Shown: positions 728-9,249 of the stretch, piece by piece
How the letters are laid out: each line of letters opens with the position of its first letter
Numbering within the stretch: the first letter of the stretch is position 1
Virus record (IMG/VR): IMGVR_UViG_3300047300_000021
Span: 1 to 23,111 of that record
Direction: 5' to 3' (one strand)
Source of the DNA: a virus
DNA: 23,111 nucleotides
The notes under the pieces: model-generated
Told to the model about the DNA's origin: nothing
What the model saw: only the letters and a program-made list of their open reading frames with translations
The model's database searches: none
Position numbers and translations under genes: made by a program

Positions 728-831
728 GCACCTGTGCCGGAGTCTGGTCTATCGGTGACGCAGCTAGAGAGTTTCAAGGGCCGCTGTGGGCAATGCTTGG
801 AACTCCGTGAGTTCGAATCTCACCGGGTGCA
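728..831 (+). tRNA. tRNA-like gene, long-arm, anticodon register CTA, possibly degenerate
   Basis: Most parts of a cloverleaf are present. A 7-bp acceptor stem pairs 728-734 with 824-830 (one G-U) and A831 is the discriminator. TG at 735-736 is followed by a D arm with stem 737-740/752-755 and GG in the loop. A perfect 5-bp T stem (807-811/819-823) holds the loop TTCGAAT. CCA is not encoded. In standard register the anticodon arm is 757-773 with CTA at 764-766. However, that stem has a mismatch and a wobble, and position 33 is G instead of the near-invariant U. The variable region (774-806) is 33 nt, longer than usual. A competing 10-bp hairpin (769-778 with 796-805) would destroy the anticodon arm. 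It could be a class II amber-reading tRNA, a decayed tRNA, or a tRNA-like RNA with another role. Confidence 0.5.
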
Positions 832-3412: not shown

Positions 3413-4812
3413 CACCTGACCTGCTTCATGACTACCAGAAAAAGGCGGTCAACTTCCAATGCACCCACGCCAACTCGATGTTGTGGTTGGACATGGGTCT
3501 AGGAAAGACCGTCATCACGCTGACCAGCCTCGCGCACCTGATCAACACCGGCTTCCTGCGTGGCGTGATCATCGTGGCCCCGATCCGCGTTATCCGGTTG
3601 GTGTGGCGACAGGAGGCTGCGAAGTGGGAACACACCAAGCACCTCAAGTTCAGCATGGTTGCGGGCACCAAGGACCAGCGCACCCGCGCTCTCCTGCGCC
3701 CTGCTGACGTGTACATGATCAACTACGAGAACCTCGGCTGGCTGGCCGAGACTCTCCAGACCTACTTCGTCAAGAAGGATCGTCCGATGCCGTTCAACGG
3801 GATCATCTGGGACGAGATCAGCAAGATGAAGAACTCCAGCACGAACCGGGTCAAGGCGTTTCGCAAGATCGCGGACAAGTTCGACTGGACCACGGGCCTG
3901 ACCGGCACCCCGGCCAGCAACGGCTACAAAGACCTGCACGGTCAGTTCCTCGTGGTAGACAAGGGTGAGCGTCTGGGCACCAGCAAGACGGCTTTCCGCA
4001 CCCGGTTTTACCGCAAGGTGGGGCCGTACAAAGAGGTGCCGTATGAGGACACCGAGGACACCATCAAGAAGCTGATCGGTGACATTACGCTGGAGATGTC
4101 AGCCGAGGACTACAACCCGCTACCCGATCTGATCGTGAACAACGTGGAGATCGAGATGCCCGACGATTTACGGGCCAAGTACGACAAGCTGGAGAAGGAG
4201 TTCTTCGTCGTGCTGGACAGCGGCAAGGAAGTCGAGGCGTTTAACCAAGCGGCGCTGACCAACAAGTGCCTCCAGTTCTCCAACGGTGCCATGTACCCGA
4301 TTGCCGGGATGCCGCTGTGGGAGCCGGTGCATGACATGAAGCTGGACGCGCTGGAGGACATCATCGACGAGGCCCAAGGCTCACCGATCCTGTGCGCCTA
4401 CGCCTACCGGTCTGACGCCGAGCGGATCATGGAGCGGTTCAAAGCGTTGCGGCCGATCAACCTGACCGAGTGCAAGAGCGAGGCATCCTTGACCAACGCG
4501 ATGCACCGATGGAAGACTGGCGACTGTCAACTGATGATCGGCCACCCTGCCAGCATGGGCCACGGCATCGACGGCCTCCAGAAGAACGGCCACATCCTCG
4601 TGTGGTATGGCCTCAACTGGTCGCTGGACCTGTACGAGCAGTTCAACGCCCGGGTGCGCCGTCAGGGTCAGGGTGCCCCGGTCATGTGCCACCGCATCTT
4701 GATGCAGAACACGCTGGACCAAGCGCAAGCACTGGCCCTCGACGAGAAGGCCACAACACAAGCAGGACTGCGCAACGCAGTCAAACAATATCGTCAATCC
4801 AAAGGAATATGA
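3406..4812 (+). CDS. SNF2-type superfamily 2 DNA helicase/translocase
   Basis: A 468-residue SF2 ATPase of the SNF2 type. Motifs appear in order: LHDYQKKAV Q-like motif (7-15), Walker A MGLGKT (30-35), IVAPIRV motif Ia (56-62), Walker B DEIS (136-139), TGTPASN motif III (166-172), GHPASMGHGIDG motif V (379-390) and QFNARVRRQGQ motif VI (412-422). It probably remodels or translocates on duplex DNA and may serve the polymerase or the VRR-NUC nuclease encoded just upstream. The start overlaps the nuclease stop by seven bases, so the two are translationally coupled; no strong separate ribosome-binding site is seen. The length is typical of phage SNF2 proteins that lack the large accessory domains of cellular members. 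Confidence 0.94.
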   Translation: MLTPDLLHDYQKKAVNFQCTHANSMLWLDMGLGKTVITLTSLAHLINTGFLRGVIIVAPIRVIRLVWRQEAAKWEHTKHLKFSMVAGTKDQRTRALLRPADVYMINYENLGWLAETLQTYFVKKDRPMPFNGIIWDEISKMKNSSTNRVKAFRKIADKFDWTTGLTGTPASNGYKDLHGQFLVVDKGERLGTSKTAFRTRFYRKVGPYKEVPYEDTEDTIKKLIGDITLEMSAEDYNPLPDLIVNNVEIEMPDDLRAKYDKLEKEFFVVLDSGKEVEAFNQAALTNKCLQFSNGAMYPIAGMPLWEPVHDMKLDALEDIIDEAQGSPILCAYAYRSDAERIMERFKALRPINLTECKSEASLTNAMHRWKTGDCQLMIGHPASMGHGIDGLQKNGHILVWYGLNWSLDLYEQFNARVRRQGQGAPVMCHRILMQNTLDQAQALALDEKATTQAGLRNAVKQYRQSKGI

Positions 4813-7308: not shown

Positions 7309-9249
7309 TTACTCCGTAACAAGCGAGTTTTGAACTTCAGCGGCCGGAGCAAGCATGTTCACGGCGGCAGGGGTGCGCAAGACCTTGGATGCAGCTTTGC
7401 CGGTTTTCTTGAAGGGGTCGGCCAGCTTCTCGCCTTTGGCTTGGCGGACCATCGCCTTTTCCAACGCCTTGGCTGCTGCGGCCGGGTCCAGCATCTCAGC
7501 AGCCAACTCGATTGCTAGCTTCTGATCCAGCTTGCCCTGCATCCGGCGCAGCAGATCGTTGGCGACCGTGGTCACGTTGTTGATGAAGTTGGGAGCGCGG
7601 ACGCTGCCCATGACCTCGGTACCCATCAGGTTCACGTCAGGACCAGCACCCCGGGCGGCAGCAGCCTGCGCCTCTGCTTGACGGGCGCGGGCCAGATCGG
7701 CGCGGACATCCTCGACAATCTTGACCTGCTCGGGTGTAAGCACTTCAGACAGGCTCTGGAACCGCGATTCACCAGTGGCCCGCTTGATGGTGCCCGGAGC
7801 GTTCTCCAGTGCTCCAGCGAACCCTGCGGCCCGCAGGCGGGCGGTTTCTTCACCCAGCGCAGGCTTGAGTTTGCCCTCAAGGAACTGGCCGACTTCCATC
7901 TGGTTGATCGGTTTGCTCTGCGCGGCGAATGTTTCCCGGGCCGTCTTGTATGACGGGGCTTTGCTCTCGGCCCACTCAAGGAACTGGGCGCGGGTACGAC
8001 CGATGGCTTTGGCTTCGGCCGAGCCGATGCCGAACGTAGCCGGGTCTTTGATCAGATCATCGAAGGCCATCTTCATAGCGTGAAGACTGCTGCCCGGGTA
8101 CTGGGCCACTTCGCCCGGGATCACGGTCTGACCTATTGGGCGACCTGCCTCATCGACAATGCTGGATGGCACCACTTGCGCAGGGCGGTTCTGACCGATT
8201 TGGAAAGGCTGACCCTTTTCCGCAGCCAAATCGCTGGCGCGGGCCAGCACCTTGTCCATCGAGGGGCGGTTCAGCAGCGAGGCGAACGTGTCATCCGCTG
8301 CCACCATCGCATTGTCGGAGATGCCATACAACTGCTTGGCCGTGGCCTTGCGTGTTGCCTCGGCGGCTTTGAGTTCAGCAGGGGTTTTACCGACCTGCTG
8401 CACCGCAGCAAGCTGCGCGGCCTTTTGAGCCTCGGCCCGCTCATAGAACGGGGTCGGGGCCGTCTTGGCGGCAGATGCACCCATTGCCGAGAACCGGGTG
8501 GCCCCCACAGGTGCAGCAGCTTCAGCGGCCGTGGGCAAGCTGCCCGGGACAATCTCGGACGGCTGGCGCAGGGCGTTGAGTACCTCGGGGCCACGTCCTT
8601 CCACGGCCGTCAGGTACGCTGCCGACTTCGGATCGAGAGCGTTGTAGACCGCACCCGCGCCTTTCGCGGCCAGCTTGAACGGAGCCTCGATGATCGGCGC
8701 AATCGGGCGCATCGGATTGATGGCGGCACCGGCTTTGGTCAGCGCAGCACCGGTCTGCGTGGCACCCAGCTTGGTCGCGGCAGCACCGCCACCGGTCAGC
8801 AGGGTGGACAGATCAGCCGCAGCACCCACGGGGTCTTCGGCAAATGTGCGCTTGATACCCTCGTAGCTGCCGTAGCGGTCCTTGTACATGCCACCGATGG
8901 CGTTGGCCGTCTGGACCGCCCGCTGCGTGGCTTCGGGGTTGTTGTCGAACTGGTCGATGAAGTTGACCACGCCCTGTGGCAGCGCGTTGCGCAGCGCCCC
9001 GGCACCAGCATCGAGGATGCCGGTGAGGGTTTGAACCGGGCTGGTCACGGCCTGCACGACCCCGCCGACGAACTTGCCAGCACTCTCGGGCAGGTTCTTG
9101 ACTGCCTCCACGGGCACCTCGGTAAGCGAGTACCCACGGCGCGGGCCGGGGATACCACCAGCAGGGGCTGCGGGAGCAAACTGCTCGAAGGGGTTGACCG
9201 CAGGCGCAGAAGGCTTCGCGGCAAACTGTGCAAACGGGTTCTCTGCCAT
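7309..9249 (-). CDS. Ejection/internal virion protein (P22 gp16-like position)
   Basis: A 646-residue Ala-rich virion protein. It begins with two NPFxQF motifs (NPFAQF 4-9, NPFEQF 19-24), which I associate with internal virion or DNA-transfer proteins of many podoviruses. The middle has Gly/Ala-rich hydrophobic stretches and the C-terminal half is strongly helical with many Lys, Glu and Ala. It is the last of three large genes in the order and approximate sizes of P22 genes 7, 20 and 16 (229, 471 and 609 residues in P22). It is therefore probably ejected with DNA to help cross the cell envelope. No transglycosylase or peptidase motif was recognised. The start directly follows the previous stop, with GGGGA upstream. 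Function is inferred mainly from position. Confidence 0.75.
   Translation of the reverse strand: MAENPFAQFAAKPSAPAVNPFEQFAPAAPAGGIPGPRRGYSLTEVPVEAVKNLPESAGKFVGGVVQAVTSPVQTLTGILDAGAGALRNALPQGVVNFIDQFDNNPEATQRAVQTANAIGGMYKDRYGSYEGIKRTFAEDPVGAAADLSTLLTGGGAAATKLGATQTGAALTKAGAAINPMRPIAPIIEAPFKLAAKGAGAVYNALDPKSAAYLTAVEGRGPEVLNALRQPSEIVPGSLPTAAEAAAPVGATRFSAMGASAAKTAPTPFYERAEAQKAAQLAAVQQVGKTPAELKAAEATRKATAKQLYGISDNAMVAADDTFASLLNRPSMDKVLARASDLAAEKGQPFQIGQNRPAQVVPSSIVDEAGRPIGQTVIPGEVAQYPGSSLHAMKMAFDDLIKDPATFGIGSAEAKAIGRTRAQFLEWAESKAPSYKTARETFAAQSKPINQMEVGQFLEGKLKPALGEETARLRAAGFAGALENAPGTIKRATGESRFQSLSEVLTPEQVKIVEDVRADLARARQAEAQAAAARGAGPDVNLMGTEVMGSVRAPNFINNVTTVANDLLRRMQGKLDQKLAIELAAEMLDPAAAAKALEKAMVRQAKGEKLADPFKKTGKAASKVLRTPAAVNMLAPAAEVQNSLVTE

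Follow-up and report, generated by a model that had tools for sequence, protein, structure and literature searches.

Positions 728 to 831 of the window, a viral record of 23.1 kb (23,111 nt) that was analysed over its whole length, are a sense-strand structured RNA in which a tRNA-like elbow, made of D and T arms, stands on a basal stem. The anticodon and variable arms are replaced by a long hairpin, the loop of which forms a pseudoknot with the strand that follows the D arm. The element occupies an intergenic slot that always holds a hairpin, the top of which is exchanged like a cassette between unrelated RNA folds. We consider the structural identity of the element, together with its slot, to be highly probable. 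The phages bearing the slot are freshwater phages.

If true, these RNAs form a common, undescribed class of small modular phage RNAs, built from a constant base that can carry any of dozens of unrelated apical folds. They would also constitute a natural RNA domain-swapping system, in which tops, some of them from tRNA bodies, are traded between phages as cassettes. The role of the slot, in mRNA stability or in RNA-based counter-defence, is thereby made directly testable, and phage tRNA-like genes can evidently be neither tRNAs nor decayed tRNAs.

The element and its flanking genes

The gene for a single-stranded DNA-binding protein (ssb, 1-720), the element and a gene for a family B DNA polymerase (850-2703) follow one another on the plus strand, to which all window coordinates given here refer. 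The ssb reading frame encodes a Gp2.5-like single-stranded DNA-binding/annealing protein (phrog_112, E 6e-31), and a 7-nt spacer (721-727) separates its TAA stop codon (718-720) from the basal stem of the element. On the other side, a conserved leader, GAGTAACCGTA (839-849), abuts the polymerase start codon and ends the slot in most relatives. No terminator-like site was found between positions 550 and 1000, with no U-tract after the hairpin, and a local search for a promoter at the element found none.

By sequence reading, the acceptor-like basal stem pairs GCACCTG (728-734) with CGGGTGC (824-830), giving 7 bp in the RNA (GCACCUG/CGGGUGC) with one U-G pair. A831 comes after the stem, where the sequence runs AACTAA, and CCA is not encoded. 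The D-like arm (737-755; stem 737-740/752-755) carries loop bases resembling A14, G15, G18G19 and A21, and the T-like arm (807-823) has a 5-bp stem and the canonical T loop TTCGAAT. The initial annotation had proposed these three tRNA arms, all of which were found where it placed them, and its 10-bp hairpin (here P3) was likewise confirmed on reading the sequence: GAGTTTCAAG (769-778) pairs with CTTGGAACTC (796-805). P3 is prolonged by a 3-bp extension, GCC (780-782) with GGC (789-791), and the P3 hairpin loop, GCTGTG (783-788), pairs with CGCAGC (759-764), which occupies the position of the 5' anticodon strand. Of the poor anticodon arm that had been described, A32 and G33 hold, but what was taken for an abnormal middle is reread as the pseudoknot 759-764/783-788. 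The folding energy of the element is weak evidence when taken alone (z -1.36; 20 of 200 shuffles equally good), and it is conservation across relatives that decides that the fold is not due to chance.

Conservation and covariation of the pseudoknot core

In relatives of the polymerase, the space between ssb and the polymerase gene has conserved ends and differing contents, and the same fold was found in the same slot at three loci, namely the window, L052 and L054, the last two being identical in sequence. Their basal stem, GUACCCA/UGGGUAC, shows two compensatory changes relative to the window. Pattern scans of IMG/VR showed that further phages have this 89-nt core, in most cases on another base; 21 distinct relatives of the core, each exactly 89 nt long, align without gaps. 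A covariance model built from 15 cores found the known cores again and added L174:1008-1095 (81 bits, E 3e-19).

Across the 21 cores, 98.1% of cells in the whole structure are paired, as against 32-43% in slid controls. Compensatory changes occur at 12 pairs, and the covariation score is 0.367 versus 0.183 in shuffles, with none of 500 shuffles reaching 0.367. The pseudoknot shows two-sided changes at five of its six pairs, with 99.2% of cells paired: its strands are CGCAGC/GCUGUG in the window, CAUGAC/GUCAUG in L052, CUUGAC/GUCAAG in L091, UCUGGC/GCCAGA in L094 and UGUAGC/GCUACA in L126. Compensatory changes were also seen at four pairs of P3 (96.7% of cells paired), as a C-G/U-A covariation in its extension (100% paired) and as a G-C/A-U covariation at one pair of the D-like arm. 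The loop bases of this arm are mostly invariant, and the T loop is invariant in all 21 cores. The alignment contains 73 G-U cells and 8 A-C cells, which indicates that the active strand is the sense strand, acting as RNA.

Invariant columns number 51 of 89 and comprise 26 of the 33 unpaired but 25 of the 56 paired columns (p=0.002). Unpaired positions are thus better kept than paired ones, and this pattern refutes the decayed tRNA that the initial annotation had offered as one of its explanations. As to conservation in close relatives, on which that annotation had made its proposal depend, the core is conserved, but the slot of most close relatives holds other content. An identical 89-nt core is shared by L052/L054, from a window-type phage with the acceptor-like stem, and by L085/L087, where it stands behind another ssb-like gene on the loop-E platform described below; the module therefore moves by itself.

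Relation to tRNA

ARAGORN called no tRNA and no tmRNA in the window. Rfam gave no match at gathering level in the window and no tRNA match on positions 600-1000 even at E<=10. A tmRNA was rejected on the ARAGORN result and on the length of the element, 104 nt. The tRNA family (RF00005) was rejected because the 21 sequences have no 5-bp anticodon stem with a 7-nt loop and U33, the 5' strand pairing instead with the hairpin loop. This pairing also disposes of a class II tRNA, another of the early suggestions, as a working tRNA, and most relatives lack the acceptor stem as well.

The third suggestion, a tRNA mimic, has stood as regards shape: the elbow bases of the D and T loops are retained (U8, A14, G15, G18G19, A21 and UUCGAAU, which conforms to UUCRANY). 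The long arm lies directly ahead of the T arm, and its placement and length suggest that the module descends from a class II tRNA whose anticodon arm was replaced. Since the core stands in most relatives on a loop-E hairpin and not on an acceptor stem, the element is neither a tRNA nor a decayed tRNA.

Exchange of slot contents

In the ssb-polymerase slots of window relatives, the hairpin starts 5-9 nt past the stop codon in 67 of 69 cases; a stable fold follows the upstream stop at a short and constant spacing, which is the arrangement of the intercistronic mRNA-stabilising type. The slots of 77 relatives were occupied by a CUGGGGGUUCCCGG stem-loop (22), a loop-E element (19), a simple UUCG hairpin (10), a tRNA-like element (3) or other content (23). 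In 42 pairs, drawn from 69 slots, the polymerase starts are at least 90% and the ssb DNA at least 85% identical, yet slot identity is below 0.55, near the 0.46 obtained for shuffles. The window compares with L010-L012 at 95% over the polymerase start, 88-92% over ssb and 0.55-0.58 over the slot.

Reading frames are inserted between slot and polymerase gene in L003, L004, L014, L035, L043, L049 and L051, and in L022, L077 and L078. They include a possible homing endonuclease ending ..YPPKPNCWSEKK and a methyltransferase-like product, both names being guesses. The same intergenic point thus also accepts protein genes.

The loop-E platform and its tops

Under most cores lies a platform that opens with one strand of a 4-6 bp stem, runs GAAAGC GGAUGCUG ... 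CAG(AC or U)GCAGC GAGUA and closes with the other strand of the stem; its G-GAA/AGUA-C resembles, at the level of sequence, the bulged-G (loop E) motif. Pattern scans found such elements at 194 or more loci, at least 152 of them distinct. Because the search patterns specified the platform words, part of the conservation of these words is built in; the basal stem and the CAGAC/CAGU ahead of GCAGC were left free in the first two patterns, and one later pattern demanded a stem of 3 bp or more. Among the matches listed, 129 of 194 elements are separated from the upstream stop by 4-9 nt.

Upstream proteins, scanned with one representative per cluster, fall into several unrelated clusters: the Gp2.5-like SSB of the window type, three other SSB types, RecT, a RecE-type exonuclease and a helicase. 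The families matched were phrog_112, 7364, 6015/378 and 44 for single-stranded DNA-binding proteins, phrog_148 for RecT and 149/434 for the RecE-type exonuclease. For two large clusters, of 36 and 14 loci, the matches were to families without assigned function or to a nucleotidyltransferase.

BLAST clustering of the inserts divided the 152 or more distinct elements into about 84 apical groups, a rough count in that clustering may split diverged families. The pseudoknot family is the largest group among the matches listed, with at least 25 members, and the genes upstream of it belong to six or more different clusters. When representative tops were folded, they did slightly better than their shuffles (mean z -1.1). 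A T-arm motif was seen in 19 of 152 elements, versus 0.03 expected, and in 4 of the 84 groups, tRNA features being absent from most slot contents. Other tops are tRNA bodies: with the Rfam tRNA model (threshold 29), that of L187 scores 30.0 bits and that of L214 27.7 bits, and in both the platform provides the acceptor side. Of 40 phage records, 34 contain the platform word once, and the other six have a second match; two platforms in direct tandem, or nested, behind one gene were observed in L138, L156 and L104. In many near-identical contigs (L293, L294, L296, L298-L301, L304, L306-L308), this pseudoknot core stands on a variant platform, GGGGGGAAAGCUUUGCUG...CAGCGAGGCAAGUACCCCC.

No isolate was retrieved when the phage record collection was searched by BLAST for the pseudoknot core and for one further top. 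Platform queries of the annotated phage collection returned one real element only, L288:2457-2541 (MW202879.1, phage ctjtQ328), which sits in an unannotated gap of this metagenome-derived record. Matches in Taipeivirus ssb (H89-H93) were short, antisense and inside coding sequence and were treated as chance; the pattern match in L082 is also a chance one. Seven pattern matches in genome contigs came from unrelated bacteria and archaea and were set aside. In L223, a Betaproteobacteria-1 RNA (RF02932, E 2e-16; 3482-3599, minus strand) adjoins a loop-E element, a hint that the hosts may be betaproteobacteria.

Tandem arrays

In L174, L305, L133, L295, L302, L147, L297 and L292, hairpins stand in tandem arrays, each with a different top, and two constant bases alternate, GUUGGU/ACCAAC and ACACGCAUGGGG...CCCCAGCCGUGU. 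Some array tops are tRNA-like, and a tRNA-derived top is present in L292 and L303. The arrays with coordinates are L174:760-1180, L305 at about 7390-7630 (minus strand), L133:427-845 and L295:13270-13699, the last followed by a tRNA-Met-like sequence. Promoters precede 2 of 36 elements that lack a close upstream ORF, versus 2.6 in shuffles; there is no enrichment, and autonomous transcription units are not supported as the rule.

Possible functions of the slot

We tentatively propose that the hairpin may act as a barrier to 3'-to-5' exonucleases that stabilises the ssb mRNA relative to the polymerase gene. Once the downstream part of the operon had been cleaved or terminated, 3'-to-5' decay would begin there and would halt at the base of the fold, directly behind the ssb stop codon. 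The ssb segment would then be long-lived and yield abundant SSB, while the polymerase segment would be short-lived. Tight tertiary folds such as loop E, the pseudoknot and the tRNA elbow would be poorly unwound by helicases and RNase R, and as many folds would suffice for a barrier, tops could be swapped; a hypervariable top might add a trans-acting role, for example as a decoy.

We favour a barrier because the stop-codon distance is fixed and abundant single-stranded DNA-binding proteins of different origin are encoded upstream, and because there is no terminator and a simple UUCG hairpin replaces complex folds in 10 of the 77 relatives. In T4, no phage mRNA is more stable than that of ssb (gene 32), and the mRNA of the polymerase (gene 43) survives for about 3 min (PMC3014915). 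In E. coli, RNA structures protect segments from decay and thereby set operon stoichiometry (PMC5927463). However, a simple barrier does not account for the unpaired bases that outconserve paired ones in the pseudoknot family, nor for the frequent exchange of tops, the tRNA-derived tops and the arrays. Copies that lie in tandem arrays, and not behind ssb, count against it. Across the genome of DSL-LC05, 80-nt folding energies behind stop codons did not single out ssb, but the 80-nt span cut short the slot, which measures 103 nt.

Room for RNAs that act in trans, for instance decoys, is left by the hypervariability, the conserved loop bases, the tRNA-derived tops and the arrays. It is possible, if rather unlikely, that small RNAs are inserted into the slot as cassettes and that the basal hairpin merely displays and stabilises tops with which host defences that bind RNA or cleave tRNA are decoyed or inhibited. 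The exchange of cassettes among nearly identical phages, the number of apical groups (about 84) and the sharing of an identical 89-nt core by phages whose ssb genes are unrelated all speak for this, and there are defences that cleave tRNAs within the variable loop (PMC13096335, PMC11555353). On the other hand, the position is tied to replication-gene stop codons, simple UUCG hairpins occupy the same slot and promoter enrichment is absent. The more specific idea that a dedicated slot behind ssb, multiplied into tandem arrays in some genomes, displays on its constant base a very large swappable RNA repertoire, domesticated tRNA bodies included, whose members would serve in trans as decoys for, or inhibitors of, host RNA-targeting immunity is unlikely in our estimate; if true, the repertoire would be the RNA counterpart of anti-defence gene islands.

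We think it improbable that the element is an autogenous operator, to which SSB or polymerase would bind and so regulate ssb or polymerase translation. Its place, with ssb on one side and the gene of a family B polymerase on the other, fits such a role, and T4 gp32 and gp43 bind a pseudoknot and a hairpin, respectively, on their own mRNAs (PMC3014915). The T4 operators, however, overlap or precede the regulated start codon, whereas here the fold is 3' of ssb and leaves the polymerase leader uncovered. Moreover, the downstream genes vary among hosts of the same module, and the diversity of folds within one protein family speaks against a specific site.

Still less credible is a processing signal at which RNase P or RNase Z would recognise the elbow and separate the ssb and polymerase transcripts, between which the initial annotation had envisaged a processing site. 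The elbow bases are intact and the acceptor/T stack has exactly 7+5 bp in the window and L052, but the elbow mostly stands on the loop-E platform without an acceptor end, and tRNA features are missing from the majority of slot contents (4 of 84 groups have the T-arm motif). A DNA-level element, such as an origin, a recombination site or a single-strand initiation hairpin, would suit the usual single copy per phage beside replication genes but is very improbable, given the 73 G-U against 8 A-C cells and the canonical tRNA-loop bases, which point to sense-strand RNA. Finally, a decayed or genuine class II tRNA gene, for all its tRNA-like arms and a T arm that matches those of phage tRNA-Ser exactly over about 22 nt, can practically be dismissed, as neither ARAGORN nor Rfam calls it, the anticodon arm is absent and pseudoknot covariation has already refuted it.

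Comparison with known systems

Searches of Rfam 15 with the window element and with a set of loop-E elements gave no match save that of the tRNA model to tRNA-derived tops, and we found no description of element or slot in the open-access literature. A tRNA-like domain alone would be a variation on a known shape; for a slot in which unrelated tops are swapped on a constant base we found no precedent in Rfam 15 or that literature. The element shares with class II tRNA (RF00005) the 7-bp acceptor-like stem, the D arm, the canonical T-loop bases and a long arm before the T arm. It differs in having a pseudoknot in place of the anticodon arm and no encoded CCA, in scoring below the model threshold and in that most of its relatives lack the acceptor stem.

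The STAXI motif is likewise a pseudoknot RNA often found near ssb and DNA-handling genes (Weinberg 2010, PMC2864571). It differs in consisting of a pseudoknot repeated two or three times. To our knowledge, STAXI has no tRNA arms. The Rfam models of STAXI, GOLLD and ROOL matched neither the window nor the elements searched. GOLLD and ROOL are also structured phage RNAs of unknown function, often near tRNAs, and GOLLD similarly has one conserved and one less conserved region (PMC12286853), but they are about 600-900 nt long with Rfam families of their own, whereas slot elements span about 40-130 nt and have no Rfam match. The T4 gene 32 and gene 43 operators are structured RNAs, including a pseudoknot, on ssb and polymerase mRNAs (PMC3014915); they lie 5' of the regulated gene, while the present element is 3' of ssb. 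Protective operon structures lie mostly within coding regions and have no swappable apical domains, but they shield operon segments from decay, as is proposed here (PMC5927463).
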